Assembly: GCF_003633715.1 (NCBI RefSeq)
Contig: NZ_RBIE01000001.1
Span: forward strand, 547,833-581,330
Length of the DNA: 33,498 bases
DNA from: Thermovibrio guaymasensis
Lineage (GTDB): Bacteria > Aquificota > Aquificia > Desulfurobacteriales > Desulfurobacteriaceae
Reading direction: 5' to 3'
The translations under genes and the position numbers were made by a program. Positions 491 to 15,758 of this stretch are shown here, piece by piece. Position 1 is the stretch's first letter, and every line of letters starts with the position of its first letter. Under the pieces are notes generated by a model. That model was not told the origin of the DNA and searched no databases. It saw only the letters and a program-made list of their open reading frames with translations.

Positions 491-1084
491 TTATTTTAGA
501 TTAGCAAAGAACTTCCTTACCTGCTCAGGTTTTCCGCAGCTCTTTTTTCCCTCTGTACAGTAACCTAGGTAGTAGCAGTTAGGACCTACGTTATTAAACA
601 AGTTTGGGAAATTATTCCTTAGAATCCTGAGAATTTCTATTGCCATTTCCCTTATCTCCCACTGGGCCCTTGAGCAGGTTCTGAGCCTTAAGAAGTGAAC
701 GAGTTCTTCTCCGTTCATCGTGAAGACAATTCTTGTTGTACAGGCGTTTGGGAGTACAAATCTGGCATCCTCTTTCGGTACTCCTTTTTCTACCAGTTTT
801 TCGTAGAACTTCCCTATGAGCTCCATTAGATCTTTAAAGGAGACTTCCTCATTATTAACTTCTACCTTAACTCCTTTAACGCTTTCAGGCTCTACGTATG
901 GGAATTTCCTCATTGCAACGTACCTTTGGGACTGCTGGCTGTAGGAAGCCGGTCTGTGGCGAACGAGCTGGTGGGAACATGCCCTTGAGATTCCATCAAC
1001 GAGAAAAGTAAACCAGGAGTGGCGAAGGGCTTCCTCCCTTCTTTCAAGCTTAGAAACACTTGAAGATAGAAGGAGAACTTCCAA
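491..1084 (-). CDS. thyX: Flavin-dependent thymidylate synthase ThyX, N-terminally short
   Basis: Converts dUMP to dTMP using FAD, NADPH and methylene-tetrahydrofolate. The diagnostic ThyX signature RHRx7S is present (R42-H43-R44 to S52, within RHRPASYSQQSQR), as are the C-terminal family block LRTCSRAQWEIR and a Cys-rich tail (GPNCYYLGYC...SCG). The frame starts at TTG with GGAGG eight bases upstream; an in-frame stop lies just 5' and no ATG is available. At 197 residues it is short. In the Thermotoga maritima enzyme RHR is at about 78-80, so roughly 36 N-terminal residues are missing, including most of the conserved GHxTPxEH segment (here ERREEALRH). The other two frames upstream do not encode the missing part, so this is not a simple frameshift. 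It follows the dCMP deaminase by 43 bp, a fitting pathway partner. Activity is uncertain. Confidence 0.9.
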   Translation of the reverse strand: MEVLLLSSSVSKLERREEALRHSWFTFLVDGISRACSHQLVRHRPASYSQQSQRYVAMRKFPYVEPESVKGVKVEVNNEEVSFKDLMELIGKFYEKLVEKGVPKEDARFVLPNACTTRIVFTMNGEELVHFLRLRTCSRAQWEIREMAIEILRILRNNFPNLFNNVGPNCYYLGYCTEGKKSCGKPEQVRKFFANLK

Positions 1085-1127
1085 GAGGAGAACCTCCGAA
1101 TTTTTACTTGCAGACGGAAATTATAAT

Positions 1128-1580
1128 TTATTTTTCTTCTTGAAACTGAATTAGTGGAAGATTTGCCTCTTTCGCTATTTCCTTTGCAAGCCAATCGGGA
1201 TAGCCTTCTTTGTAGATTACCTTTTCAACTCCCGCATTTATCAACATCTTTACGCACAGCGAACAGGGACAGTGAGTACAGTAGAGAACGCTATCCTTCG
1301 TTGATACTCCGTGTAGGGCAGCCTGGATTATCGCGTTCTGTTCAGCATGGAGGCCTCTACAGAGCTCGTGCCTCTGGCCGCTCGGAACTCCCAACTTCTC
1401 CCTTAAGCAGCCAACCTCTTCAGGGTGTTTAAGGCCTGATGGAGGACCGTTGTATCCGGTAGCTATTATCCTTTTATCCTTAACCAGTACAGCTCCTACT
1501 TTCCTCCTTAAGCAAGTAGAACGGGTAGAGACCATCTGGGCGATAGACATGAAGTACTCGTCCCAGGATGGCCTTGGCAA
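1128..1580 (-). CDS. dCMP deaminase (ComEB-like cytidine/deoxycytidylate deaminase)
   Basis: A 150-residue zinc-dependent deaminase expected to convert dCMP to dUMP. The zinc site is complete: HAEQNAI with H78 and catalytic E80, and PCSLC with C106 and C109. The opening RPSWDEYFM is typical for the dCMP deaminase/ComEB group and supports the TTG start at 1580, which is preceded at seven to eight bases by GGAGG. The next ATG would cut into this conserved block. The gene begins directly after the stop of the 43-residue membrane protein and precedes thyX by 43 bp. Together with ThyX this makes a two-step route to dTMP. Size and motifs match the family closely; riboflavin-type or tRNA deaminases are less likely. 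Confidence 0.92.
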
Positions 1581-1712
1581 CTAGTGTCCTCCGAGGATGT
1601 GGTGATAAGCCGTGCTAATGAGGGTAATGAACATAATTATGTAGAGGATAATTTCAACGGAGGCTATCCACTTTCTAAATCCGAAAATCGTTTTAAGGGC
1701 TTTGCTTGCCAT
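1581..1712 (-). CDS. 43-residue membrane micro-protein, last gene of the cytochrome operon
   Basis: A short frame with ATG at 1712 and TAG at 1581-1583, preceded by a strong ribosome site (GGAGGGAAG). The product opens MASKALKTIFGFRKWIASVE, continues with one hydrophobic helix (about residues 19-36, IEIILYIIMFITLIST-like) and ends in a His-rich tail AYHHILGGH. No known family is recognised. It follows the 49-residue membrane protein with the ribosome site embedded around that gene's stop, and precedes the dCMP deaminase with no gap. The coupling and codon style support a real gene. It may be a small subunit that stabilises the membrane cytochromes, but that is inference from position only. 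Confidence 0.7.
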   Translation of the reverse strand: MASKALKTIFGFRKWIASVEIILYIIMFITLISTAYHHILGGH

Positions 1713-1721
1713 CTTCCCTCC

Positions 1722-1871
1722 CTACAGCCACATAAAGAAGGATTCTGAGTACCAGTGAACAAACTTAACGAACCAAACTCCCAGAATCGGAAGGAGGAGT
1801 ATTGCTAAGGTTGCTGCAAGTACTATCCATGCTTCCTTTTCTATGTCCCTTGAACTAACTTCCCTTGCCAT
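1722..1871 (-). CDS. 49-residue single-helix membrane protein in the cytochrome operon
   Basis: A short frame with ATG at 1871 and TAG at 1722-1724. GGAGG lies eight bases before the ATG, which decides the start. The protein has a charged N-terminus (MAREVSSRDIEKEAW), one transmembrane helix of about 20 residues (VLAATLAILLLPILGVWFV) and an aromatic C-terminus (HWYSESFFMWL). Charge distribution suggests the N-terminus stays in the cytoplasm. It starts 12 bp after the 24-heme cytochrome gene and is followed within 9 bp by a second membrane micro-protein. No family is recognised. Small single-helix subunits are common partners of membrane cytochrome complexes, so an accessory role is plausible but unproven. 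Confidence 0.72.
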   Translation of the reverse strand: MAREVSSRDIEKEAWIVLAATLAILLLPILGVWFVKFVHWYSESFFMWL

Positions 1872-1883
1872 TTCTTAAACCTC

Positions 1884-4556
1884 CTATTTGTAAGAGGGCT
1901 TTTCACTGTGGACCTTTTCCGTGTGGAAGAGTTTGTACCTATATAGGGCATCAAGGCCGTGACAGTCTACACAGATACTTCCCTTTAGGTCTCTATTTCT
2001 CAAGAAGCTGTTGAGTGCGTTGCCCTCAACCGGTTTCCTTGGAGCCTTCTCCTGCCACTTGCTCCAGATGTGCGGTTCGTGGCAGGTTTCACAAGCGATC
2101 TCTCCACCGATACTTACTCTTTTACCATTTTGTGTAAATATAGGCCAGTCTCCTGCCCTTCCAGGCCTATCAAGGTTTTTAACTATCACGTCCTTCTTCG
2201 GGTGGTAGTACTCAGTTACTACTTTCTCTTTAGCTGTACCTTCTTTTGAATGGCAGGTTAGACAGTAGTTTGACATCCTGTTATCCGTTATTTCCTTAAC
2301 CTTAAAGGCCCAGAGTAAGTCATCTTCAGCCCTGTGGGGAACGTGGCACGCAGAACATACGCCGTCCTTTAGAACCTCTTTACCTAACGAGTTCTTAAAG
2401 TTTTTCTTAACGACTCTCATGTCGTGGTCGGTTCCAATTACCTTAGACTGTTGGGTGTGGCATGAAGTACACAGAGGGCTGTCTCCCTCAACAACGTATC
2501 TGATTAACCTTTTCCTGTCTGCTCCGTTGTGGGGTTCGTGGCAAGTTCCACAGTCAAAGACTCCAATTTCTCCCTTCTTAGCCGGATGGCCTGTCATCTG
2601 GTTTATTATGGGGAGTTTGGAGTTTTCAATCATTTTAATGTTCTTCTCGGTAACTTCTTTTCCTATTGGGTGAGAGTGCTCTCCTATTAGAGCCTTCTCT
2701 GCCATCTTCCCTTTTGCGTGGCAGGAGAAGCAGAGTTTCTCTCCTATAGTTTTACCTCTAGACGGTTTTCTGGCCCATAGGACTTTAAACTCTGGGTTGT
2801 GAGGCGTATGGCAAGCGGAGCACTTACCGTTCTTAGTAAGTTTCTCCTTTTCCTCCTTACTTAAATTAACGTTCGGATTGTTGAGTACATCGTGAGGAGT
2901 TCCATCAAGGCTCTGGTCTGTGTGGCAGGTTAAACAGAGCTTAGAATCATTCCTAACAGGAATTCTTAGTAGTTCTTCTTTGTGGGTATGGGGATCGTGG
3001 CATGTAGCACAGGAGATCTTCTTTCCAGGTAGTTTGTTAGTTGGGTTATCTACTCCAACTGGGTGCTCGTTGAACACAGATTGTTTGACCTTGTGTTTTG
3101 CCATTCCTTCAGGATCGTGACATGCTAAACAGAAACCGTCAACCGGAGGTTCCATAGGAGAAATCTCACCATAAACGACCCTTGATAGGTAACCTCCTTT
3201 TGCCTTGTGGACGTTATGGCAAGCGCCACAGTCTCCCTTTTTCCACTTCTTCTTGTCTATTTCTCCGTGGGGACCTTCCTTAACTTCTGCTTCTTCCTTA
3301 TGACACGTGTAACAAAGTTCTAGCTTTTCTTTCCTTAAAAACTTGCCTTTAGGTTTTTTGTCAAATGAGTGGTGAGGGTCGTGACATGTAGTACAGGAGA
3401 GTTTCCCATCAGGTAGGGGAAGGTGAACTTTCTCTTTTACCCCCTTTCCTGTTGAGTGAGTTAGTGTTCCAACGTCCGGAACCTCTTTTCCGTTTACCGT
3501 ACTCTGCGGGTAGTGACAGGATAGGCAGAGGATATCGTCTCTTCCCCCTGCCTCAATTATTGAAGCGTAGTCGTAGGCTTCTTCCGGTATTGTTCTGCTC
3601 CACAGGTTTTTACCTTTGGCCTTGTGGGGAGTGTGACAGCTCTTACAAGAATTGCCGGCTATGTTGTGTTTCGTTTTGTTTACCCACTTCTGGTCGGTGT
3701 GGCATAGGATACAGAGCTCTTTCTCAGGAATGACTACTAGGTGTTTATTCTCCTCTCTATGGACCTTGTGGCAAGTCATACACTCAACGCTCTTTGTAAT
3801 AGCCTTCTTCTCTTTAAATAGGGCAACGTCTGCACCTTTCGGAAACTTCTTATGTATAGGGTGGTTCCTGAAGTTTGGATGTTCCTTTGAGTTAACGTTC
3901 TCCATGTGGCAGACTGAACAAAGGTTTGAGTTATCTATCCTTTCAATTAGGGCCTTCTCTGCCTTACCCTTGTGGGCTGAGTGGCAGGATTCACAGGTAA
4001 CTTCATTCTCTTTTGTTAACTTTCCACCTAAGTTTTTAACTTTCTCTGCAACTTCCAGTTTGATTTTGTTATTCGTATCCTCAAGGATTGGATGGTTAAT
4101 ACCGTGTTCGGAGTTTTCCTTGTGGCAAGCTATACAGAGAGCTGAGTTTACGTTTGGTTTCCTCATGAAGGTATAGTCAAGTTTTTTCTCACTTCCGGTC
4201 TCTGTGTGAGGGGTGTGGCACGTTCCACAGTAAAGTTTTCCCTTTTTAAGTGGAAAACCTTTAGGTATTTTAAAGTCTTCAGGTACTTCTTTATCTACAG
4301 GGTGTGAAAAGTGGTTAAATCCTAAGAAGGTGAGCCTATCATCAGCCATTGAGCCGTCGTGACAGGATAGGCACATGAGTTTATCTGTTGCCGTTAAGGA
4401 TTGCCTGGTAAGGAGTTTTGGAGACTTTAATTTAGCTTCAAGAAGCCAGTTTTCGTGGCAGATAAGACACTCCTTTTTCATACTCTTTTTGAGCTTTGCT
4501 TCTGCCGTGTTTGTAACAGCCAGTATAGTTAGGAGGACTACGAGTGATTTCCTCAT
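1884..4556 (-). CDS. Secreted 24-heme c-type cytochrome built of paired CXXCH modules
   Basis: An 890-residue protein with a Sec signal peptide (MRKSLVVLLTILAVTNTAEA) and 24 CXXCH sites, the first at residue 30. From the third site onward the sites alternate: odd-numbered ones read CXXCHxxH (for example CGTCHTPH, CTTCHDPH, CATCHDPH, CETCHEPH), while even-numbered ones lack that second His (CIACHKEN, CILCHTDQ, CLTCHTDQ). This is the doubled-CXXCH pattern (paired_CXXCH family), repeated about 11 times. No enzymatic domain is visible, so the likely role is long-range electron transfer in the periplasm or at the cell surface. The ATG overlaps the stop of the propeller gene as TAATG. No transmembrane anchor or lipobox is present. 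The acceptor cannot be deduced from sequence. Confidence 0.93.
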   Translation of the reverse strand: MRKSLVVLLTILAVTNTAEAKLKKSMKKECLICHENWLLEAKLKSPKLLTRQSLTATDKLMCLSCHDGSMADDRLTFLGFNHFSHPVDKEVPEDFKIPKGFPLKKGKLYCGTCHTPHTETGSEKKLDYTFMRKPNVNSALCIACHKENSEHGINHPILEDTNNKIKLEVAEKVKNLGGKLTKENEVTCESCHSAHKGKAEKALIERIDNSNLCSVCHMENVNSKEHPNFRNHPIHKKFPKGADVALFKEKKAITKSVECMTCHKVHREENKHLVVIPEKELCILCHTDQKWVNKTKHNIAGNSCKSCHTPHKAKGKNLWSRTIPEEAYDYASIIEAGGRDDILCLSCHYPQSTVNGKEVPDVGTLTHSTGKGVKEKVHLPLPDGKLSCTTCHDPHHSFDKKPKGKFLRKEKLELCYTCHKEEAEVKEGPHGEIDKKKWKKGDCGACHNVHKAKGGYLSRVVYGEISPMEPPVDGFCLACHDPEGMAKHKVKQSVFNEHPVGVDNPTNKLPGKKISCATCHDPHTHKEELLRIPVRNDSKLCLTCHTDQSLDGTPHDVLNNPNVNLSKEEKEKLTKNGKCSACHTPHNPEFKVLWARKPSRGKTIGEKLCFSCHAKGKMAEKALIGEHSHPIGKEVTEKNIKMIENSKLPIINQMTGHPAKKGEIGVFDCGTCHEPHNGADRKRLIRYVVEGDSPLCTSCHTQQSKVIGTDHDMRVVKKNFKNSLGKEVLKDGVCSACHVPHRAEDDLLWAFKVKEITDNRMSNYCLTCHSKEGTAKEKVVTEYYHPKKDVIVKNLDRPGRAGDWPIFTQNGKRVSIGGEIACETCHEPHIWSKWQEKAPRKPVEGNALNSFLRNRDLKGSICVDCHGLDALYRYKLFHTEKVHSEKPSYK

Positions 4557-5359
4557 TACTTGTCTCCTTGGACTCTAAATATGGATATCCTGTTTTTCAG
4601 GGGTTCTAGAACAAACACTTCACCATCATAACAGGCTAGAGCTGTTGGATAGTAGAGTCCCTTTGCAATGACTTTCTCAAAGCCTCCGTAGACGTCAAAG
4701 AGCTGAACTGCTCCGGTTATTCCGTCGGAGACAGCAACCTTTCCATTTCCGCAGTAGGCCACTCCCTTTGGCCTGAAGAGGTCTCCTTCCTCTATTCCAA
4801 AAACCCCGAAACTTCTAATGAACTTTCCATCCTTATCAAATTCCTGGATTCTGGCATTTACGCTGTCAACTACAAAGAGGGTGTTCTTTGCTGAGTCAGT
4901 AAGGAATACTCCAACGAAGTTGCCAGGGGCACTTCCCTTTCCTCCGAATCTACCTAAGAGCTTTCCGTCTGTTGAGTAAACGTCAACGCTTTCAAATTCA
5001 CCGTTTGTTATGAAAAGCTTTCCGTATAGCTTCTCTACATCTATCGGCCTTCCCTCTACTTTAAAACTCTTCTCTAGGTTTCCAAACTCATCAAGGATGT
5101 ATACCCTTCCCTTCTGGCTTACAACGTAGAGGAGTCCATCTGAAGCGTCAATTCCGTAAGGGCTATCAACCTTTATGTTGGTAAGGAAATTTCCGTACAA
5201 GTCGTAAACTTCTATTCTGTTGTTGAGGCCGTCTACTACGTAGAGCTTACCGTTAGAAACGGCAATGTCTGAAGGGAACTTCCAGTTTCCCTTTATCTCC
5301 TGACCTAACGCCGGTACTGAAAATAGTAAGAGGAAAATCGCTATGAGGAAACCTCTCAT
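4556..5359 (-). CDS. Secreted NHL-repeat (six-bladed) beta-propeller protein
   Basis: A protein of about 267 residues with a signal peptide (MRGFLIAIFLLLFSVPALGQE) followed by five to six NHL-type blades, each with a pattern like G-x-L-Y-V-V-D-x-x-N-N-R-I and F-x-x-D-G-K-x-x-x-x-F-G. The last blade ends KNRISIFRV. A longer frame begins at GTG (5368), but AGGAG is ideally spaced (8 bases) from the ATG at 5359, which also gives the cleaner signal peptide. It lies between a triheme cytochrome and the 24-heme cytochrome, with its stop overlapping the next start by one base. NHL propellers bind proteins or ligands and have no redox group of their own; here it may act as a scaffold or cap for extracellular cytochromes. 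That role is inferred from context. Confidence 0.85.
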   Translation of the reverse strand: MRGFLIAIFLLLFSVPALGQEIKGNWKFPSDIAVSNGKLYVVDGLNNRIEVYDLYGNFLTNIKVDSPYGIDASDGLLYVVSQKGRVYILDEFGNLEKSFKVEGRPIDVEKLYGKLFITNGEFESVDVYSTDGKLLGRFGGKGSAPGNFVGVFLTDSAKNTLFVVDSVNARIQEFDKDGKFIRSFGVFGIEEGDLFRPKGVAYCGNGKVAVSDGITGAVQLFDVYGGFEKVIAKGLYYPTALACYDGEVFVLEPLKNRISIFRVQGDK

Positions 5360-5370
5360 TCCCATCACTC

Positions 5371-6081
5371 CTACCAGATAAATTTAGGAAAGTGTAAAGT
5401 TTCGTACTCTTTTAGACCTTTAACAATTTCGTTCTCTTCAAGGTCTTTTACCCTTTCAGGGCTGAATCCAAGTTCTCTGAAGTCAAGCTTTCCGTTTTCC
5501 TTGTGGCAGTCTTCACACTTTAGGGCTTCCTTTGTTAGTGAGTTGTGCATCTTTGCAACTGCTCTTTCATCCTTTAGAAGATCTTCGTTTCCCTTTAGGG
5601 GGAGCTCTACAGGTGTGCCTTCATAAATCGGAACTATTTTTGCCTGGCTGTTCTGTCCCGATAGCATAACTCTATCACCGACCTTTACGTACTTAAGGCC
5701 GTAAAAATCTCCACTGTCAAGGACGACAACTTTCCCATTTTTGATTTCAGCCCACTTGTAGGTTAAACCTTCCTTCACAAAGTGGCACACGTTGCAGCTC
5801 ATGAAAGTTCCGTGAGCGTTATAAAAAGGAGCGTACTTACTGTCCTTTTTGTGAGCTGCAAAGGTATGGCATGCACTACAAACGTCGTTCATCTCGTATT
5901 TGTAAGAGTTAGGAGAGTGGAAAGGTTTGGGATACTCCTTCAGGTTTGGTAGTTCAGGCCTTTCCATCTCCTTTATTTTCTCTCCCCACTTTGCAGAGTC
6001 TGTTGCTGGAGCCTCAAGGAGAGGATTACCTCCAGCAACGGCCGTGACGGGTATTATTAGGGCTATTAGAAGTTTCCTCAT
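5371..6081 (-). CDS. Periplasmic triheme c-type cytochrome
   Basis: A 236-residue protein with a signal peptide (MRKLLIALIIPVTAVAGG) and three CXXCH sites: CSACH and CNVCH in the first half and CEDCH near the C-terminus. Between them lies about 85 residues of haem-free sequence, rich in beta-type patterns (KVVVLDSGDFYGLKYVKVGDRVMLSG), which suggests a small folded insert. The C-terminal stretch KCEDCH...GKLDFRELGF resembles segments seen in cytochromes that accompany membrane b-type cytochromes. The ATG overlaps the stop of the b561 gene as TAATG, so the two are translationally coupled. It is probably an extracytoplasmic subunit or immediate electron acceptor of the b-type cytochrome. No named family is recognised with certainty. 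Confidence 0.85.
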   Translation of the reverse strand: MRKLLIALIIPVTAVAGGNPLLEAPATDSAKWGEKIKEMERPELPNLKEYPKPFHSPNSYKYEMNDVCSACHTFAAHKKDSKYAPFYNAHGTFMSCNVCHFVKEGLTYKWAEIKNGKVVVLDSGDFYGLKYVKVGDRVMLSGQNSQAKIVPIYEGTPVELPLKGNEDLLKDERAVAKMHNSLTKEALKCEDCHKENGKLDFRELGFSPERVKDLEENEIVKGLKEYETLHFPKFIW

Positions 6082-7013
6082 TACGCTTTCCCTCCTTCAA
6101 CTTCCTTCTCAAGAAGGTGGTGAGCATATTCGTGCATCCTCTTTATCATCTCCTCTTCAGGAAGTTTCTCCACCTCCAAGACGAACTGATACCTCTCCTT
6201 TAGGAATGGGTATTTCTCAAGTAGGTGAGGCTCATTCTCTGCAACTGCTTTGATAATTCTCCTGTAGCTCCTCGGCCTTTCCTCAATCCACTCAACTTCT
6301 GAGGCTGTTCCCGTAAGCCAGATCCAGTCCATAGGGAACTTGTTCGGTCCGTAGTGGACTATGTACATGTGTACAAGGGCAATCCAACCAAGGGCTAACA
6401 CCGCTTCGTCCGAGTGCATAAGGTAAGCAATTTGAATCGTTTCAGGTGGTAGACCTAGGTAACCTGTAAATACCTCCGGAAGCCACAGCATCCATCCTGT
6501 AATACCGATTGCCAGCATACCCCAGCCAACTGCCCAGAAGTCAAACTTGTCAACCCAGATGTACTCGTCCCAGTCAGGGGGTACTTTCCTAAAACCGAGG
6601 AGGTATTTTATGTAGTGAACAAAGGTAATGTCTGACGGGCCGGGAACTATTTTGAAGTATCCGAAGAAGTCCTTCTTTGCTAAGTCCCAGTTAGCTAATA
6701 AGATGAGAATCATGTATACAACAGTTAGAAGGAAGTCTGAAAACATTATGAAACCGGAAATCCTGTGAATTGTCATCTCACCACTTATTCCGCCGAGGAG
6801 TTCTATGAGGGGCTTTGCCCACTCAAGCTCGTAGAACTTTATTGGATATCCGGTAATAATCTGCCAGATAAAGGTTGAGAAGATTCCTACGTGGAGCAGC
6901 CTTTGGAAGAGAGTAAACTTCTGTATCATTATCTTCTCACCGTCAACGATGAGAAGCTTATCCTGTTCTGCCCTTATCCTGAATCTTCTTTTGAAAGCCT
7001 CCCAGAGTCCCAT
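6081..7013 (-). CDS. Cytochrome b561/formate-dehydrogenase-gamma-like membrane subunit
   Basis: A 310-residue integral membrane protein with four main hydrophobic helices at about residues 36-58, 80-107, 160-180 and 200-225. Histidines in or near them (H41, H83, H200, H215, H220) are suitable ligands for two b-type haems. The sequence resembles the b561/gamma subunits that exchange electrons between quinol and periplasmic partners. It has no signal peptide and a hydrophilic C-terminal tail of about 80 residues. Its start overlaps the stop of the membrane-anchored multihaem cytochrome gene (TAATG), and its own stop overlaps the triheme cytochrome start. The trio most likely forms an inner-membrane quinol oxidase or reductase. 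Direction of electron flow is unknown. Confidence 0.88.
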   Translation of the reverse strand: MGLWEAFKRRFRIRAEQDKLLIVDGEKIMIQKFTLFQRLLHVGIFSTFIWQIITGYPIKFYELEWAKPLIELLGGISGEMTIHRISGFIMFSDFLLTVVYMILILLANWDLAKKDFFGYFKIVPGPSDITFVHYIKYLLGFRKVPPDWDEYIWVDKFDFWAVGWGMLAIGITGWMLWLPEVFTGYLGLPPETIQIAYLMHSDEAVLALGWIALVHMYIVHYGPNKFPMDWIWLTGTASEVEWIEERPRSYRRIIKAVAENEPHLLEKYPFLKERYQFVLEVEKLPEEEMIKRMHEYAHHLLEKEVEGGKA

Positions 7014-8107
7014 TAGTGTTTCCTCCTCAGGTTTTTAAGAAGGTCAAGACCTACGATTGTAACTGCAAAGAGAAGAGTTCCAGTGGTTAACCAGAACATG
7101 AATTCTTCAACAATCTTTACAATCTTCTGTCCTAGTGAATCTGGAATTGGGTGCATGTGAACCCACTTAGTCGTTGCCATGTTCTTCATATCTTTTGCTG
7201 GAACGAGTGGATGACACTCGGTTGAGCGACCGCAAGTTAACTCAATGTTCTTCTCGTTAATTGAGGAGCGAGGGTCTTCCTTGTGGAATATATCGTGGAA
7301 GTTTCCGTCCTTATTCGTATGACAGTCTAAACAGTCTGCTGCTCTTGTGTCGTTCCTATCCAGGTAAAGCATCTTTGAGTGCATTGTGACTTTGTATGAC
7401 TCAACAGCCGTTAAGACGTGTTCCTTGGCAAACTCATCGTGGATACCTTCTATTTCAAGTGCTTTTTCCATCTTCTTCTCATCTTCGTGACAGGAGGCAC
7501 AGAGTTCAACTATCTCCCAGCCGTCCCTCCTTGTTTTAATGAACTTGTGGGTAAAGCCGTTTTTAATTACCGGAATAGGTTCCCTGCTTGCAACGTGGGA
7601 GAGCCTATCCTTGGTCCAATCTTTATTTTCGTGACATATAGAACACCTGTTGAGGCTCATCTTCATTGATTCAAGCTTTGTTACGTCAATTAACAGGTCG
7701 TTTGTATGGCAGTAACTACAGTAGGGGTAGATATCCGGGGCCTTTTGGTAGTTCTTACCGTGAACGCTCTCTTTCCACGTTTCAAAGACACTTTTGTGTG
7801 AAAAGGGTTTTTTCGTTGAAGGATCAACTACGTGACACTTATTTGCACAGTTTACGGCAGCGTTTTCGGGCTTGTGAGGGTACTGTTCAATTTTGTCGTG
7901 ACACTCGGTACACCCAACGTTCCTGTGAATTGAATGGGCATAGAGGGCATCTGAAATGCTACAGTCCTTTACTTTGTTTTCCTCGGTTACGACCGATAGA
8001 CCTTTAAGTCTGTGGCATACGAGACATCCATCGTCGGGAATTCCGGCTCCTACGGCCGCTCCAGTTATAGCTATAGCCCCGCTCAATCCTAAAATCAAGG
8101 CTTTCAC
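7013..8107 (-). CDS. Membrane-anchored multihaem cytochrome c (6 CXXCH + CX3CH + CX5CH)
   Basis: A 364-residue protein with a signal peptide and a C-terminal transmembrane helix (about residues 325-347) followed by a short basic tail, so the haem domain faces the periplasm. Canonical CXXCH sites begin at C28, C66, C130, C155, C203 and C259. Two spaced variants are also visible: C87-A-N-K-C91-H92 (CX3CH) and C292-GRSTE-C298-H299 (CX5CH), suggesting eight haems. A WKESVHGKNY segment before the fourth site recalls octahaem-type cytochromes. The start is GTG at 8107 with GGGGGTAGAGA upstream. It is coupled to the b561 gene by a TAATG overlap. Likely role: relay between the quinol-active b subunit and soluble cytochromes, analogous to Cbc-type complexes of metal reducers. 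The analogy is inference. Confidence 0.88.
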   Translation of the reverse strand: MKALILGLSGAIAITGAAVGAGIPDDGCLVCHRLKGLSVVTEENKVKDCSISDALYAHSIHRNVGCTECHDKIEQYPHKPENAAVNCANKCHVVDPSTKKPFSHKSVFETWKESVHGKNYQKAPDIYPYCSYCHTNDLLIDVTKLESMKMSLNRCSICHENKDWTKDRLSHVASREPIPVIKNGFTHKFIKTRRDGWEIVELCASCHEDEKKMEKALEIEGIHDEFAKEHVLTAVESYKVTMHSKMLYLDRNDTRAADCLDCHTNKDGNFHDIFHKEDPRSSINEKNIELTCGRSTECHPLVPAKDMKNMATTKWVHMHPIPDSLGQKIVKIVEEFMFWLTTGTLLFAVTIVGLDLLKNLRRKH

Positions 8108-8117
8108 TCTCTACCCC

Positions 8118-8987
8118 CTACTTTAGCGAGTTAATTGAGTGGCAAACTTGACAGAGTTTTCCACCTTTAAGCTGGTAGCTCATTAACTTTACGCCTTCTG
8201 TGTTTATTTTGAACCTGTTTAGTTCAAGTTCTAGTTTCCTTAGTTTATACTTAAGCTCCTCTTCCCCTACCTCTGTCCACTCCTTTGGTAACCCTTGGGC
8301 GGGAACTGCAATTTGAGGGTGGGGATTGTGGCAAGTTATACACTCAATTCTCCCTTTAACTAGGATGATTTTAGGCTTCCTGCTCTTAAGCTCTTTTTCA
8401 TCTATCTTTGGTTTAAGCTGTTCCATTTCCTCAATTTCAACTAACTGGGCCTTTCCCTTTACCAGCTCTTTAACCTTTTCTGGTTTTGCAAGTAGGTGTT
8501 CAGGAGCTCCAACGTGAGGCGTCTTTGTGTGGCAACCTACGCATGCCTTATAAGCTTCAAGTTTAGCCCCAACTCCATGGCAGTAGATACAGGCCTTTCT
8601 CTTTTCCTGCCACTTAGCGTTTGACCCTATCGTTTTGTGAGGGTTAAACTTCCTGTAGCACTCCTCGTTGTGGCACTGGAAGCAAAAGTCAAACCTCTCC
8701 CTCAAAGGCCTATTGGCTCTGAGGAATTTTTCACTTTTCCCATTCATATCGTGGCAGGTTGTGCAGGTTAATTTCCCTCCATTCAGCGGAAAGCTTGGAG
8801 GAACTTTTATACACTCCGTTTCCCTTACTTTACACTCTGTTGGATGAACTATTGGGCACCCTTGTGTGTGGCATTTAGTGCAGAATTTTGGGTCTGTTCC
8901 AGAGTAGCCAACTCCTCCACACTCCTTGGAGTGGGCATTTCCTACCAGTCCTGTTAGTAAAAGTAGAGCAATCAATCCCTTTCTCAT
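8118..8987 (-). CDS. Secreted heptahaem c-type cytochrome
   Basis: A 289-residue protein with signal peptide MRKGLIALLLLTGLVGNAHS and seven CXXCH sites (CTKCH, CTTCH, CFQCH, CIYCH, CVGCH, CITCH, CQVCH). A haem-free, Lys/Glu-rich segment of about 70 residues separates sites five and six, so it may form a two-lobed protein. The frame is open for 18 more codons upstream, but the ATG at 8987 overlaps the previous gene's stop as ATGA and begins the signal peptide, so it is the better start. Extra cysteines near the N-terminus (ECGGVGYSG, TECKVRETEC) are not in CXXCH form and might form disulfides. It lies between the haem lipoprotein and the membrane-anchored cytochrome, fitting a periplasmic shuttle. 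Family not named. Confidence 0.87.
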   Translation of the reverse strand: MRKGLIALLLLTGLVGNAHSKECGGVGYSGTDPKFCTKCHTQGCPIVHPTECKVRETECIKVPPSFPLNGGKLTCTTCHDMNGKSEKFLRANRPLRERFDFCFQCHNEECYRKFNPHKTIGSNAKWQEKRKACIYCHGVGAKLEAYKACVGCHTKTPHVGAPEHLLAKPEKVKELVKGKAQLVEIEEMEQLKPKIDEKELKSRKPKIILVKGRIECITCHNPHPQIAVPAQGLPKEWTEVGEEELKYKLRKLELELNRFKINTEGVKLMSYQLKGGKLCQVCHSINSLK

Positions 8988-9583
8988 TTTGTCCAGTTCC
9001 CCTTTGTATGGCATTCCATACAAAATGTTGGCCTGTGGCATCTACTACACTTTGCAGGGTCTGCAGCTGCCTCTATGCTGTGGGTGTACTCGTAGTTCCT
9101 CGGGTGGACCATATGTTGAACAGTGTCCCTTCTTGCATGGCAGTCTATACAGAACTTCTGCCTGTGACATTCGTCACACTTTTCAGCTTTTGCTTCATAG
9201 GCGAATTTGTGGGTTTTGAGCCAATCTCCGGTTTTGTGATCTGCCGGCTCAATTTCTTTCATGTTAAAGTGGCACAGGTAACATTTTGTTGGTGCATTTG
9301 GAGCGGGAGATTTTCCGGGATTGTTGTGGCAGTAATGACACGTAACCTTTGAGGGCATTATCACTTTTTTTGAGCCTTTTTCGGCCGCTTCTATATCTGC
9401 CCAGCTCATTTCAACGTTCATTTTGTGGCAAGGGATACAGCCGTTCTTATCTATAAAGGACTTGTGGTCCTTATGGTGGAACCTAGCTGTAGCTCCGAGC
9501 TCCTTCTTGTAGTCAACTTTTCCCTCGTTTACGCAGGAGGAAACCGTTAAAGCTATTGCAATAAGGAGTAGTTCCTTCCTCAT
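8984..9583 (-). CDS. Heptahaem cytochrome c lipoprotein
   Basis: A 199-residue protein with a lipoprotein signal ending LTVSSC, where C17 would be the acylated residue. Seven CXXCH sites follow: CIPCH, CHYCH, CYLCH, CDECH, CIDCH, CSRCH and CMECH. The last four come in two close pairs (CDECHRQKFCIDCH and CSRCHRPTFCMECH), an internal duplication visible by eye. Free histidines (HHKDH, ADHKTGDW, THKF, THSIE) can serve as distal ligands. The gene starts by ATGA overlap with the beta-barrel gene and ends by ATGA overlap with the next cytochrome. A lipid-anchored multihaem protein encoded directly after an outer-membrane barrel fits a porin-cytochrome conduit. Whether it sits inside or outside the barrel cannot be told from sequence. 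Confidence 0.9.
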   Translation of the reverse strand: MRKELLLIAIALTVSSCVNEGKVDYKKELGATARFHHKDHKSFIDKNGCIPCHKMNVEMSWADIEAAEKGSKKVIMPSKVTCHYCHNNPGKSPAPNAPTKCYLCHFNMKEIEPADHKTGDWLKTHKFAYEAKAEKCDECHRQKFCIDCHARRDTVQHMVHPRNYEYTHSIEAAADPAKCSRCHRPTFCMECHTKGNWTK

Positions 9584-10842
9584 TTCTTATCCTCTACCCT
9601 TTTTTCCTCTCCGCCCCAGAAGAGGAGGTTGTACCTTAAAATTAGCCTTAAGTCCCTGTCAAAGTCCTCGTTTTTCCTGTAGTCAATACCGAATTCAAAG
9701 TTTGAGAATTCCGTTGCTTGATAGGTTCCCTTTAGGTAGTAGGAGTTTGCCCACTGCTTCCCGTAGGTGACTTTGTCGTAGCGGGCTATGTCAACCCTTC
9801 CTGAAAGGGAGAGCTTCTCGCAGAGGTACTTTGTAAACCCAAGCTCAACTCCCCTTAAGATTCCTATCCAGCTGTTTTGATAGAGGAAAGCTCCGTAGGT
9901 CCTGAGGCCTTCAGAGAACCATGTATCCCTTATAGCTCCAACTTTAATAAGGTGGCCGTTGTCCTTGCCGTTTTTCTGAATGTCGGTTCCTGTGTATGAA
10001 CCAAACAGTGACCAGACTTTGTTAAGTTCGTAGTAGGTGCTCTGGGTAAAGCGGAGCTCCCTACCTTGAGAGGAGAAGTTTGAGAATATCGGGTCTTCAA
10101 TCCTTCCGGCGTAGTAGTAGGAACCGTCGTAGTACTCAACCTCTGTTGTTAACCTTAACTTCCTGTTTGGAAAGTAGTTAAAACCTAGGTTTCCATTCAG
10201 GAACTCCCCGTGGGCTAAGTCAAACTCAAGCCTGCTGAACTGTACCAGCTTCTTTGTTAGGTAGGAGTAGTTTCCAATTGAAATGGCGGTCTTTTTAACT
10301 TTCCCGTCGTCCCTTAAGTGTTCAAACCCAAAGAAGTAGTTTTTATATTCAAACTTAATACCGGTTAGGAAGTCGTCTCCGCTCTTAACTCCCGGCTCAA
10401 ACCACCTCGGTTTGCCGATGTAGAAGACGTATTTAAAGTCTTTGTTCAACCTGTAGGAGTACTTAATTGAATCTGCTATGTAGGTTTCAAAACCTTCGGA
10501 TATGAACTGACGACCTATTGAAAGGAGAGAGTTCCTGTCCTTCTTCAGGGGAACGTCAACGTACACCTGGTAAAGGTCTACGTCCCAGTCATTTCCGTAC
10601 CCTAAGTCTTTCCATAGCTTTCCGTAGAAGTGAAGTTCACTGTTGCCCTTTAAGTCCCTTATGTCAAGCTTTAGGTAGTTATCAAAGGGGATAGAATCCT
10701 TATCGTAAACGTCCTGGCGAAACTCTATCTGAGTTTTTACCTCTCCCTCGTATCCAGGTAGTTTAAGTGCGGCCAGCGAACCGCTGGTTGAGAGGAGTCC
10801 TATTCCCAGTCCCAGAGCTAAGGTTCTCTTTCCTATCCCCAC
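9580..10842 (-). CDS. Outer-membrane beta-barrel (porin-like) protein, first gene of the cytochrome operon
   Basis: A 420-residue protein with a signal peptide (MGIGKRTLALGLGIGLLSTSGSLAA) followed by alternating hydrophobic and polar residues typical of transmembrane beta strands, rich in Tyr and Phe, ending in a strand RLILRYNLLFWGG and a charged tail. Residues such as FRQDVYDKD and SIGRQFISEGFETYIADSIKYSY recall porin-like barrels. The size suggests roughly 16-18 strands, smaller than MtrB-type 26-28-strand barrels. The start is GTG at 10842 with AGAGGG about seven bases upstream; no ATG is nearby. It is the first gene after the promoter and is coupled to the haem lipoprotein by ATGA. It is probably the sheath that lets the lipoprotein or other cytochromes pass electrons across the outer membrane. 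No CXXCH is present. Confidence 0.82.
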   Translation of the reverse strand: MGIGKRTLALGLGIGLLSTSGSLAALKLPGYEGEVKTQIEFRQDVYDKDSIPFDNYLKLDIRDLKGNSELHFYGKLWKDLGYGNDWDVDLYQVYVDVPLKKDRNSLLSIGRQFISEGFETYIADSIKYSYRLNKDFKYVFYIGKPRWFEPGVKSGDDFLTGIKFEYKNYFFGFEHLRDDGKVKKTAISIGNYSYLTKKLVQFSRLEFDLAHGEFLNGNLGFNYFPNRKLRLTTEVEYYDGSYYYAGRIEDPIFSNFSSQGRELRFTQSTYYELNKVWSLFGSYTGTDIQKNGKDNGHLIKVGAIRDTWFSEGLRTYGAFLYQNSWIGILRGVELGFTKYLCEKLSLSGRVDIARYDKVTYGKQWANSYYLKGTYQATEFSNFEFGIDYRKNEDFDRDLRLILRYNLLFWGGEEKRVEDKK

Positions 10843-10875
10843 GTTTAACCCTCTCTGTTAGAGCTGTACCTTCGG

Positions 10876-10905
10876 ATATTACAAAAAAACTTAATTCCAT
10901 GTCAA
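10876..10905 (-). promoter_or_regulatory. Sigma-70-like promoter of the cytochrome operon
   Basis: On the minus strand a perfect TTGACA (-35, 10900-10905) is separated by 18 bases from TAATAT (-10, 10876-10881), about 34 bases before the GTG of the beta-barrel gene. The spacer contains a T-tract. This is the clearest promoter in the window and supports independent transcription of the cytochrome genes from the molybdenum operon upstream. No inverted-repeat operator is obvious. Confidence 0.65.
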
Positions 10906-10968: not shown

Positions 10969-12177
10969 TTAGAAAGGGTTGTTGAAGAGGAGGACTTCAA
11001 CTGTTTCACCTTTTTCAACGTTTCCCCTCTCTCTGCCGATTACTGCAAGTCCCTGGCATTTTACCACTGTTAGAAAGTTGCTGGTTTGTTGGTTACTCTC
11101 GGGGTAAACTTTTAGGACTCCTTCCTCAGATGAGAGTTTAACTCTTATGAAATCAACCCTTCCCTTCCTTGATTTTAACTTATCTCCGGCTACTGCCGTA
11201 ACGTACTTGTTCTGAAATTCCTTAATTCCCATAGCTTTCTTAACTGCCGGTACTAAAAACTCAAGGGCGTTGACTAAACAGGCAGCCGGGTAACCTGGAA
11301 GGCCGAAGAAGAGTTTATCCTCCCTCACTCCAAAAGTTAGGGGTCTTCCCGGCCTGATGTCCGTCTGTGTAAAGAGGATTTCTACTCCAAGTTCTCTTAT
11401 AACTTCCCTTACGAGGTCATACTTTCCCTTAGAGATTCCCCCTGTAGTAACGGTAAAGTCGCAGGTTGAGAGGGACTGGGCTATGAGCTCTTTTAGCTCT
11501 TCAACGTTATCCTTTCCCTTTCCAACGTATACGACTTCTGCTCCTAAAGACTCAAGGAGGCCTTTCAAGGTGTAAAAGTTGGTATTCCTTACGGCTCCTT
11601 TTCTAAAAGGTTCTTCAGGTTCAAGTACTTCTGTTCCTGTCGTTACTATTCCTACTTTTACTCTCTGAAATACTTTTATTCTGTAAACTCCAAGGTGGGC
11701 AAGGAGGCCTACTTTCCGGTAGTCTAAGAGCTCTCCTCTCTTAATTACCCTTTCTCCCTTCCTTATTTCGCTTCCTCTAAAGTTTACGAGGTTACCCTCT
11801 TCAACCGGAAAGTCGATTACTAATTCATCTCCCTCAACCTTGACGTCCTCAATTCTGACGGCAGCGTTACTCCCTTCGGGGATGACTCCCCCGGTCATAA
11901 CGAATGCAGCTTCTCCACGTTTAAGGGAAAACTTCTTTTGGCTTCCTGCCGGAATTTCACCTACTACCTTTAACCTTGCAGGGAGTTCTGTTAGTAAAGC
12001 TGTATTAAAGGCAAAACCATCTATTGCAGACTTATCCTGGTCGGGGATATCAACCGGAGATACTACGTCCTGGGCTATTACTCTACCGTAGGCTTCGTCA
12101 AGGACTTTAGTTTCAGTTCCAGTAACTTTTACCCTTCCGTTTATTATCCCTTTTGCTTCCTCTCTCTTTACCTTCAC
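10969..12177 (-). CDS. moeA: Molybdopterin molybdotransferase MoeA
   Basis: A protein of about 402 residues catalysing molybdate insertion into adenylylated molybdopterin, the last step of basal molybdenum-cofactor synthesis. Family features in order: the N-terminal DEAYGRVIAQDVVSPVDIPDQDKSAIDGFA block, the MTGGVIPEGSNAAVRIED segment, and the MoCF-type domain with GIVTTGTEVLEP, VTTGGISKGKYD and GRPLTFG...FFGLPGYPAAC. A longer frame starts at TTG (12189), but GGAGG is five bases before the GTG at 12177, making that the likelier start. It ends the mod-moe operon. A second MoeA-like gene lies immediately upstream, so the two may have divided roles (molybdenum and tungsten, or insertion and sensing); this is inference. 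Confidence 0.93.
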   Translation of the reverse strand: MKVKREEAKGIINGRVKVTGTETKVLDEAYGRVIAQDVVSPVDIPDQDKSAIDGFAFNTALLTELPARLKVVGEIPAGSQKKFSLKRGEAAFVMTGGVIPEGSNAAVRIEDVKVEGDELVIDFPVEEGNLVNFRGSEIRKGERVIKRGELLDYRKVGLLAHLGVYRIKVFQRVKVGIVTTGTEVLEPEEPFRKGAVRNTNFYTLKGLLESLGAEVVYVGKGKDNVEELKELIAQSLSTCDFTVTTGGISKGKYDLVREVIRELGVEILFTQTDIRPGRPLTFGVREDKLFFGLPGYPAACLVNALEFLVPAVKKAMGIKEFQNKYVTAVAGDKLKSRKGRVDFIRVKLSSEEGVLKVYPESNQQTSNFLTVVKCQGLAVIGRERGNVEKGETVEVLLFNNPF

Positions 12178-12189
12178 TTTCTCCTCCAA

Positions 12190-13212
12190 CTATGGCCTTC
12201 CAAATGGACATATTGGGAAAACGCAGACTGGACAGCTGTGACAGAGCCCTCCGTGTCCCTTAGAAGCGACTTCTTCCTTCGTTATGACGTCTCCTACCAG
12301 GAGCCTTGGGAGCCAGATGTCAAAGGATGTTGCTTTGAAGAAGAGGGCTGCTGCCGGGACTGCAACTATAGGTTTTCCTTTTATCCACCCCAATGTAAGC
12401 ATATTTCCAGGCTGGATAGGATTACCCCTTATGAAGTTCTCCGCTCCTGCTTTCTTTATGGCCCTGTAGGTAACGTCATCGGGGTCAACCGACGTTCCGC
12501 CTGTAAGGACCACAATGTCGTACTTCTTGCTGAATTCCTCTATCTTTTCCCTTATTTTCTCCTCATCGTCTGGAAGAATTACTTTCTCTGCGACTTCACA
12601 CTTGAAGAACTCCAGTTTAGGTCTAAGTTTTTCGTAAAACTTATCCTTGATTCTTCCATAGTAAACTTCATTTCCGGTTATTATCATTCCTGCTCTTTTT
12701 TGTGTAAAAGGAATAACCCTAATTATCCCGTCCTTTGCAATTTCTACTGCCTTCTCTATCTGTTCCTTTGGAGCTGTGAGCGAGATAATCCTTACTGCAG
12801 CGACTTTCTGACCGGGTTTGACCCACATGTTTGTGTGGATAGTTGGACACGAAGGCTCACCTACCATGTTGAACTTTAGTAGTTTTTCAGTATCTACCTT
12901 TACGACTCCAAAGACCTTTGAGTAAATGACTATCTTCCCTTCCTTAGGCTCTTCATCCCGATAGAGGTTCTCTCCCATAAGTGCATCGGCAAGGACTTTT
13001 GCAGCTTCGTCTTCGTGTACTTCATCTTCCCCAAGCTCTAAGACGTAAACGTACTCCTTTCCGAGGTTCTTAAGCTTCTCAACGTCTTCTTCCCTTATTA
13101 TGTGTCCCTTCTTAAAGGCCCTTCCTTTAATCCCTTTTTCTGGGTTAACTTCTGTGATGTCGTGGACTAAAACCATTCCAATGGCGTCTTCAACCTTAAC
13201 TTTCCTCTTCAT
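12190..13212 (-). CDS. MoeA/MogA-like molybdopterin-binding protein with Cys-rich C-terminus
   Basis: A 340-residue protein with a central molybdopterin-binding (MoCF-like) fold: [38 protein letters not shown] and [27 protein letters not shown]. The N-terminus ([16 protein letters not shown]...[17 protein letters not shown]) resembles the SAF-like opening of this COG0303-related group. The tail [19 protein letters not shown] has four cysteines spaced CxxCxxC and C, typical of this subgroup and suitable for metal or Fe-S binding. It overlaps modC by 17 bases and precedes moeA by 12. It probably binds molybdopterin or its adenylate alongside MoeA, but its exact reaction is not established. It is not a canonical MoeA because the MoeA domain order is incomplete. 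Confidence 0.85.
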
Positions 13213-14251
13213 TCTTCCTCCCTATTACTGGTAAGTGATGGGCTGAAAGGTAGAAAGTACTTTCCCTTCCTTCCTGAAGTAGGAAATTTGGAGATAGGGA
13301 AGATGGGATGTGGAGCTCTACCTCTTTTCCCTCAAAGGTGGCGTAAACCCTGCTGATTTCCCTTCCCTTTTCAACCTTCTTAACGACCATTTCAACTCTG
13401 TTCGTTTCATCGGCAAGGGAGAGGGCGAGTGAGTTGGGAAGTATTGAGACGGACACTTTCTCCCCAACTTTAAAGTTCCCCTTTCTACACTTTAGAACTC
13501 TTCCTGAGGGGAGCTCTACAGCTGTAAACTTCCCAACTTCCTTTACTGTACCTTCAACGAAGCTCCTGTGGCCGAGTAGTTTTGCAGTTTCCACAGATTC
13601 TGGATTGAAGAAAACTTCGTTCGGTTCTCCTTCCTGAATGACCTTTCCGTTGTTCATAACAACTATCCACTCTGCTAGCTCAAAGAGCTCTTCAGGGTCG
13701 TGGGTTACCAAGATGGTAGGTATTCTGTAAATCTCTAATATCCCCTTTAGTTCCTTCCAGAGCTCCTCCTTTAAGTTCCTATCAAGGGCTGAGAAGGGTT
13801 CATCAAGGAGCAGGATTTCAGGTTGGCTTGCAAGGGCCCTTGCAAGGGCTACCCTCTGCTTCTGTCCACCGGAAATCTGTTTAGGGTACTTGTCCTTTAG
13901 GTTTTCTATCTTGAGGGTTTTTAGGAGTTCCTCAACCCTTCTTCTATCCTTTGCTCCGTAAGTGACGTTTTGGTGTACAGTCATGTGTGGGAAAAGAGCG
14001 TACTCTTGAAATAGGTAGCCAACCTTTCTTTCCTGGGGAGGGAGGTTGACTTCCCTTTCTGAGTCAAAGAGGAGCTTCCCGTTAACTTCAATCCTTCCAC
14101 TGTCAGGCTCTATTAAGCCTGCAACTGCTTGGAGGGTAAGGCTCTTTCCTGAGCCGGAAGGAGCGAAGAGGGCAGTTACCTGAGACTCAGATTTAAAGTT
14201 CACATCTAAGGAAAAGTTCTTAAATTCCTTCCTTACGGATACTTTCAGCAT
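13196..14251 (-). CDS. modC: Molybdate ABC transporter ATP-binding protein ModC
   Basis: A 351-residue ABC ATPase. Walker A is PSGSGKS (residues 31-37), the signature motif is ISGGQKQR, Walker B is [12 protein letters not shown], and the switch His lies in [10 protein letters not shown]-terminal TOBE/Mop-like region of about 100 residues (starting near [21 protein letters not shown]) fits ModC, where it binds oxyanion. It overlaps modD at its start (CCATGCTGA) and the molybdopterin-binding gene at its end. With ModB and ModA it forms a molybdate or tungstate importer. The N-terminal [10 protein letters not shown] is usual for ModC. Specificity between molybdate and tungstate cannot be decided from the ATPase. 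Confidence 0.93.
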
Positions 14252-15090
14252 GGCTCTATCTGTACCTTTATGTCTGCAGGTTTTCCAAAGTAAGCACAGG
14301 TTAAGACTATTATGTCAACCCCTGTAGAGGCGTAGGTTTTAATGTTACTCTCATTTATCCCTCCGGCGGCTGCTACTTTTGCAGAAGGGAAATTCCTTTC
14401 CTTAAACTCAACGACCTTTTTAACCTCTTCCGGTGAGAATTTATCAATCTGAACTACATCGGCGCCGGCCTTCAGCGCTAAAAAGGCTTCTTCAACTGAG
14501 TTAACTTCTACTGTGACCTTTTTCTCAGGAACTCTCTTCTTTAAAGAGGGTAATTTCTTTAAGAGCTCCTCCAATCCTCCCAGGAACTTTGAGTGTTGTT
14601 CAAAGATTAGGACAGTCTCAGATAGACCTAAACGGTGGGGGAGAGCTCCACCGGCCAGGATACCCTTTATACAGATTTTCTTTGAAAGGGGAAGAGTTTT
14701 CCTCGTTGTAACGATTTCTACGTCTGGATTTACGCTTTTAGCAAGGTTAACTAGGTTCCTTGTTCTCGTTGCTATTCCGGAGCCGTACTCAAGAAGGTTC
14801 TGAGTTACCTTCCATACTTTATGTATTGCTTCAGCTTTGCCTTTTGCTTTAAGGAACACTTCCTTGGGAGGCACTTGAGTTCCGCTGGAAGTGAATTTAA
14901 GGACCTTTAAGTTGAACCTGTCAAAAATCCTTTTACACTCCTCCGTTGCACAGACTACTATTTCGTGTCTTGCTGAAAAGCTTATAGTTCCCTCTTTATT
15001 TCCAATATCCAGTAAATAGGTTGTTAGGTCAAAGTAGGGAACGTCCTCTTCAATGAGTTTATCAATTTCACTTTCTGTAAAGGTTACCAT
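14245..15090 (-). CDS. modD: ModD-type, NadC-like phosphoribosyltransferase-fold protein
   Basis: A 281-residue protein of the quinolinate-phosphoribosyltransferase (NadC) superfamily in its ModD branch: opening [17 protein letters not shown], central [17 protein letters not shown] and [36 protein letters not shown], and C-terminal [16 protein letters not shown] and [23 protein letters not shown]. The ModD hallmark GGxxPHRxGLSExxLxF distinguishes it from true NadC. The gene overlaps modB by 7 bases and modC by 7. ModD is found in molybdate-transport operons but its reaction is unproven. If the genome lacks nadC, a role in NAD synthesis would be worth considering. Confidence 0.9.
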
Positions 15091-15758
15091 CTCTTTCCCT
15101 CTTGGGAGAGCCTGTTAATTAGATAGATGATCACAATTGAGATCCCTGCTGAAACGGCAGTTAGGATATTTGCCCTCTCAAAGTCTCCTCCTGAAACAGC
15201 GCTGTATATTTCCAGGGGAATCGTGTTTGTTTTAAATGGGATATTACCTGCAAGCATCAAAGTTGCTCCAAACTCCCCTAAAGCCCTTGCAAAGGAAAGG
15301 ACAAGCCCAGCGATTATGCCACTTTTTGCTAAAGGTAAAACAACTTTAAAGAATGTGTAGAGTTCACTTTTACCCAGTGTATAGGAAACCTTTATTAAGT
15401 TTTCGTCAACAGATTCAATTGCGGCTTTGGAGCTCTTTACAAAGAGGGGGAAGCCGGCAACAAATGAGGCAACGACGGCTCCGTACCACGTGAAGACTAT
15501 TCCCGTATTAAAGAGCTTATATAGAACGGAACCTACGGGGCCGTTTCTCCCAAGAATTAGAAGGAGAAGGTATCCTGTTACTACCGGAGGGAATACTAGT
15601 GGAAGGGTTATAAGTGTGTCAACTAGGTTTTTTAAAGGAAAGTCCTTCTTTGCAAGGGCGTAGGAAAGTGGAAGTCCGAGTATAAAAATCATCATAACTG
15701 ATACGGTAGCAACCTTAAGTGAGAGTTTAATTGAAAAGAGAGCTTGCGGGTCTAGCAT
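15084..15758 (-). CDS. modB: Molybdate ABC transporter permease ModB
   Basis: A 224-residue inner-membrane protein with five to six hydrophobic helices. The ABC permease EAA-loop is present as [16 protein letters not shown] (about residues 160-175), the form specific to ModB/CysTW-type permeases. Other family features are [15 protein letters not shown] and the C-terminal [16 protein letters not shown]. The ATG directly follows the modA stop (TAGATG), so the two genes are translationally coupled, with the ribosome site inside the end of modA (GGGAGC). Length equals the usual family size. Confidence 0.94.

Follow-up and report, generated by a model that had tools for sequence, protein, structure and literature searches.

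The window, a stretch of 33,498 nucleotides from Thermovibrio guaymasensis, contains ten minus-strand open reading frames packed from position 10842 down to 1581, nearly all of which overlap their neighbours or lie at most about 12 bases from them. The original prediction of a ten-gene operon thus stands: all ten frames were confirmed on the minus strand, mostly overlapping. Gene 1 (9580–10842, GTG start, 420 aa) codes for an outer-membrane beta-barrel. Gene 2 (8984–9583, 199 aa) codes for a 7-haem lipoprotein, its lipobox being read from the sequence, which is a candidate plug of the barrel. Gene 3 (8118–8987) specifies a secreted 7-haem cytochrome of about 289 aa from the conserved start; the longest frame begins at 9041. 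Gene 4 (7013–8107), the orthologue of Theam_0871 and Dester_0351, is a membrane octahaem cytochrome with a hydrophobic C-terminal helix, and gene 5 (6081–7013, 310 aa) a cytochrome b561-type quinol subunit (Pfam PF01292, 1.9e-13). Further downstream follow a 3-haem cytochrome (gene 6, 5371–6081, 236 aa; haem motifs and profile searches), a secreted NHL-repeat propeller (gene 7, 4556–5368, 270 aa; PF01436, 9e-12), a 24-haem paired-CXXCH cytochrome (gene 8, 1884–4556, 890 aa; Pfam and haem motifs) and two one-helix micro-proteins of 49 and 43 aa (gene 9, 1722–1871; gene 10, 1581–1712). Genes 1, 9 and 10 have no Pfam match, and gene 1 has no NCBIfam match either.

Transcription from one promoter had also been proposed. 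A promoter-like site, TTGACA-18-TAATAT, does lie ahead of gene 1 on the minus strand (10876–10905) and agrees with the consensus at 10 of 12 positions, but such sites are no commoner here than by chance: the consensus scan of the region gave 7, compared with 10.4 in shuffled sequences. Immediately 3' of gene 10 a deoxycytidylate-deaminase-like gene is located (1128–1580). Because it adjoins directly and is kept in 11 of 15 related loci, the operon transcript may extend past gene 10. Upstream, on the same strand (10969–16490), lie two moeA-like genes together with a set for molybdate ABC transport (modA, modB and a modC-like gene, with a modD-like gene in between), all named from their sequences. 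A moeA-like gene precedes the operon in 11 of the 15 related loci.

Haem-binding motifs

The estimate of about 49 c-type haem sites agrees with our count of 49 candidate motifs in five proteins: seven each in genes 2 and 3, eight in gene 4 (six CXXCH, one CX3CH, one CX5CH), three in gene 6 and 24 in gene 8. When the residues of each protein were shuffled 1000 times, the mean number of CXXCH was 0.004–0.155 and never more than two occurred, therefore a chance origin of the motifs is excluded. The numbers for genes 2, 3, 4 and 6 (7, 7, 6 + 2 and 3) are the same in all 15 related loci; with the window included, all 16 sequences have the seven CXXCH of gene 2 as well as both the CX3CH and the CX5CH of gene 4, which are candidate haem sites. 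Gene 8 has 24 motifs in 12 of 14 loci and 28 in the other two.

Conservation and published orthologues

A search of 61 genomes for the barrel returned 16, all belonging to the same family (16 of its 22 genomes), and the 15 loci besides the window were then compared. Among 11 loci found in a search of named genomes, 10 were titled Desulfurobacteriaceae, Desulfurobacterium or Thermovibrio. As far as the contigs reach, gene order is the same throughout: genes 1–7 are present in all 15 loci, mostly with the same overlaps (the contig of L031 ends inside gene 7), gene 8 in 14, gene 9 in 14 and gene 10 in 12, with L031 accounting for one miss each time. The best-conserved protein is that of gene 5, 87–97% identical to the window except for 70% in L027, followed by gene 9 with 84–94%.

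The full set of ten genes is found in the same order in T. ammonificans HB-1 (Theam_0871 region) and D. thermolithotrophum DSM 11699 (Dester_0351 region), where Shi et al. (2014; PMC4245776) listed porin-cytochrome (pcc) clusters. These authors described the inner-membrane cytochromes Theam_0871 and Dester_0351 as 79% identical, with six typical haem sites plus two atypical ones and a proposed role in quinone cycling, and suggested extracellular S0 reduction for the cluster, as a proposal and not from a measurement. In our data the gene 4 products of L029 and L026 share 79.6% identity across 362 aligned positions, each with six typical and two atypical sites; they contain 22 and 25 histidines, compared with the 24 given there. 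Since identity, motifs and gene order agree with the published description, the window contains an orthologue of the published cluster. The gene 8 protein of D. thermolithotrophum, with 28 haem motifs against 24 here, is no different in kind.

The operon is therefore the Desulfurobacteriaceae porin-cytochrome (Pcc) operon, already described in this genus and family. That it might represent a new extracellular electron-transfer system has to be rejected, as close full-operon homologues with a proposed role are on record (PMC4245776). The accompanying idea, a path from quinone to the outside encoded in one operon, is supported by the anatomy, with a porin-cytochrome conduit and a quinol-oxidising module together in one operon of this thermophilic bacterium of the Aquificota, but not as a novelty. 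The abstract, Results and Discussion of PMC4245776 mention neither the micro-proteins nor a two-module build nor relatives lacking the conduit. In the literature searched, with most subscription journals outside that search, no earlier description of the two-module build was found. This build is the addition made by our comparison, the operon itself having been described before in close relatives.

The probable outer-membrane conduit

Genes 1–3 form what we call module A. A model of the gene 1 protein built from 12 sequences (pLDDT 76.4, pTM 0.66) is a barrel of 22 strands, counted from the listed elements, and includes no plug domain. Its best structural matches are to OprD-type porins (Z 18.6, 281 residues, 5.6 A) and to TonB-receptor barrels (Z 18.5, 341 residues, 4.8 A), the latter being known to have 22 strands. 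MtrB is absent among the structural matches listed, an absence which proves nothing, and the barrel profile matched no PDB sequence at E values up to 10. Genes 1 and 2 share a 4-base overlap and occur together in all 15 loci. The gene 2 lipoprotein would be seated in the barrel lumen. Gene 3 comes after genes 1 and 2, where an OmcB-type gene would be expected. Judged from the sequences, genes 3 and 8 have ordinary signal peptides, and no obvious cell-surface cytochrome is encoded in the operon.

The proposed quinol module and periplasmic carriers

Module B comprises genes 4–10. Nine histidines of gene 5 are invariant across 16 sequences, and its protein weakly matches (E 0.0012) PDB 1kqf_C, which is the b subunit of formate dehydrogenase N from E. 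coli. Given what is known of that family, both observations lead us to expect gene 5 to oxidise menaquinol with the help of b-haems. A b561 search of plasmids gave none. Gene 4 is likely the c-type partner of gene 5. Its structure prediction was unusable (pLDDT 35.5), and its profile found no match among PDB sequences at E values up to 0.1. One genome (G015; L027, 3470–5501) shows unusual divergence over the final quarter of gene 4 and the opening half of gene 5: 40-column windows are 46–58% (gene 4) and 45–60% (gene 5) identical to D. thermolithotrophum and the window, whereas these two are 78–89% identical to each other in the same stretches. This joint divergence may hint at contact or co-evolution of partners; as these stretches lie side by side on the DNA, one recombination event explains it equally well.

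The gene 8 protein, a long chain of paired CXXCH motifs, is likely a periplasmic carrier. It is unlikely to be solely a surface protein because it is kept where the conduit is missing. It shows a weak sequence match (1.6e-6) to PDB 6r2q_A, which we take to be MtrA, the database listing naming the entry otherwise.

Two separable modules

The two modules differ in their distribution. Within the family, relatives of b561 were found by profile in 21 of 22 genomes, compared with 16 for the barrel, and of 136 genomes of the phylum 21 contain gene 4, all of them members of the order Desulfurobacteriales. Three loci of genus g7 (L072, L073 and L074) keep genes 4–8, gene 8 with 24 haems, as well as gene 9 and homologues of gene 10, and lack both barrel and gene 3. 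Gene 2 is replaced there by a two-haem lipoprotein of 123–130 aa whose homology is to the initial part of gene 2. This stub (L072, 12058–12432; L073, 8464–8835; L074, 8427–8819; L079, 1294–1680) has a Pro/Lys/Glu-rich linker and is present in all four g7 genomes; in the fourth, G019, it lies directly before gene 4 and the contig stops inside gene 5. A sister-family genome (G022) has genes 4–7, a 13-haem gene 8 and a weak match to gene 9 (E 0.007), and lacks genes 1–3 and gene 10. We repeated the barrel search in nine genomes with a profile that included the distant barrel of L043. At E values up to 1 it found none in G009, G010, G012, G014, G017, G019, G022 and G023, the only match being in G061, the source of L043.

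The reverse case is L043 itself (titled Nitrospirae bacterium UBA2233), which combines a barrel with a 7-haem protein of 41% identity and a relative of gene 3 in shorter pieces, with genes 4–10 absent. Its genes at 586–4292 (a 6-haem gene, the barrel, the 7-haem plug relative and two small cytochromes) have the appearance of a stand-alone conduit, and the plug is present also in G137, a second genome of the same group. Each set thus occurs without the other, so that genes 1–3 and genes 4–10 act as separate units. Furthermore, as module B persists without a detectable barrel, at least part of its work needs no outside.

In a tree of genes 4–8, rooted on the sister-family genome and computed without L031 and L079 because of their contig ends, g7 is sister to all conduit-bearing genera. 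This topology fits a gain and a loss of genes 1–3 alike. The two-haem stub in all four g7 genomes leads us to lean towards a loss in g7. In G010, a 98% complete genome from the genus of D. thermolithotrophum, none of genes 1, 4 and 5 was detected; natural loss of the whole operon and an assembly gap are both possible.

Relation to known electron conduits

By the published description, pcc clusters combine a barrel gene with a neighbouring gene for a multihaem periplasmic-type c cytochrome, with 18–22 strands and 5–14 haems, and most of them, not all, also include an outer-membrane surface c cytochrome (PMC4245776). Here genes 1 and 2 stay together in all 15 loci; the modelled barrel fold has 22 strands, and gene 2 has seven haem motifs. 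The OmbB-OmaB-OmcB system of Geobacter likewise pairs a barrel gene with an adjacent gene for a multihaem cytochrome. Compared by description, however, OmaB has 8 haems and OmcB 12, whereas the partner here has 7 and an OmcB-like lipoprotein is lacking, and only here is a quinol module part of the same operon (PMC4245776). The principle of barrel plus cytochrome is shared with MtrCAB too, to which the weak match of gene 8 also points. But MtrA is a 10-haem periplasmic protein, genes 2 and 3 have seven motifs each, and for the MtrB/MtoB barrel 28 strands were predicted (PMC4245776), against 22 in the gene 1 model. Membership in the Mtr group is ruled out by the haem number.

Module B resembles in its make-up the menaquinol:ferricytochrome c oxidoreductase Cbc5 (CbcEDCBA) of Geobacter, for which three c-type cytochromes, a single b-type cytochrome and a membrane protein are described (PMC11434368). 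The same combination of b-type cytochrome, multihaem c-type cytochromes and small membrane protein in one operon is seen in genes 4, 5, 8, 9 and 10. Unlike Cbc5 as described there, module B has octahaem and 24-haem cytochromes, an NHL propeller and two micro-proteins.

Proposed electron path and alternatives

From the genes, their motifs, the modelled barrel fold, the conservation, the modularity and the identity with published loci we infer a topology, an order and direction of electron flow and an acceptor. In our reading, to which we give a probability of about 0.65, this two-module porin-cytochrome operon carries electrons outward from menaquinol to an acceptor that is solid or bulky, elemental sulfur or polysulfide being the most likely. 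The b561 protein (gene 5) would oxidise menaquinol and pass the electrons to the octahaem cytochrome (gene 4) anchored beside it, with genes 9 and 10 as small membrane subunits of this menaquinol:cytochrome c module. The trihaem gene 6 and 24-haem gene 8 proteins would carry them across the periplasm to the barrel, which would hold the 7-haem gene 2 protein, the second 7-haem protein (gene 3) being its partner. Electrons coming ultimately from H2 would thus exit the cell. That a sulfur species is the main acceptor within this reading has, in our view, somewhat less than an even chance; it would lead only by elimination and by the published suggestion. D. thermolithotrophum uses S0, thiosulfate, sulfite and polysulfides as respiratory acceptors and does not respire nitrate (PMC3368423). 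Strain HR11 was reported to be without sre, sqr, dsr and sox genes, its thiosulfate mechanism being called unknown; at low H2, one of its nine putative c-type cytochromes went up and two went down, these not being matched to operon genes (PMC12724263). Proposals for sulfur reduction in T. ammonificans name Sqr or Nsr (PMC5441870), which are rivals to the operon in this role.

Module B could instead be a periplasmic reductase of polysulfide, sulfite, thiosulfate or another soluble compound, one of the multihaem proteins being the catalyst and module A an outward accessory in most genera. This is favoured by the three g7 loci in which genes 4–10 persist although barrel and gene 3 are missing, and by genes 4–9 in one sister-family genome, as well as by gene 6, whose weak match (3e-8) falls far below the cut-off of the octahaem tetrathionate-reductase family and covers about 47 residues of the model's 440 positions. 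However, Pfam and NCBIfam recognise no catalytic domain in genes 4–10, and most of the family has kept the conduit beside module B, so that we consider such an enzyme unlikely. A related view would take module B (b561, octahaem cytochrome including its conserved CX3CH and CX5CH, trihaem cytochrome, NHL propeller, 13- to 28-haem cytochrome and micro-proteins) for an independent, order-wide complex, a quinol-linked sulfur-compound reductase of the Desulfurobacteriales beside which the conduit was gained or lost as a unit; this, too, appears rather doubtful to us.

The direction of flow might also be inward, from minerals, metals or other cells through the barrel into the quinone pool. Porin-cytochrome conduits as such do not set the direction, as is known from Mtr and Pio and also stated in PMC4245776. 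We regard an inward path as quite improbable, given that, in published work, both named carriers oxidise H2 and use S0, sulfur compounds or nitrate as acceptors, and that Shi et al. found no pcc cluster in a bacterium known to oxidise Fe(II) (PMC4245776). Service in nitrate or nitrite respiration is the least credible of these alternatives and has a very small probability. It is suggested by the adjoining molybdate-transport and molybdopterin genes, including the moeA-like gene ahead of 11 of 15 loci, and by the reduction of nitrate to ammonium in T. ammonificans. But D. thermolithotrophum carries the operon and uses no nitrate (PMC3368423), and the genome of the window has elsewhere a separate cluster (L111, 12808–19399) of an octahaem cytochrome, a NapC-type protein, a 4-haem cytochrome and a NapA-like molybdoenzyme which, from its predicted gene products, can serve nitrate. 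On these two grounds we reject the nitrate role.

How Desulfurobacteriaceae pass electrons to sulfur compounds has been called unknown or unclear (PMC12724263, PMC5441870). With outward transfer from menaquinol as the preferred reading, the family offers a natural series: the full operon (16 of 22 genomes), operons without the conduit (g7 and one sister-family genome) and apparent absence (G010). The question thereby becomes testable by comparing isolates, with no need for genetics. As a minor observation, locus L113 (1075–3534) contains a 705-aa 7-haem frame and a 107-aa one-haem frame end to end, which may be one gene split by a frameshift or a sequencing error.
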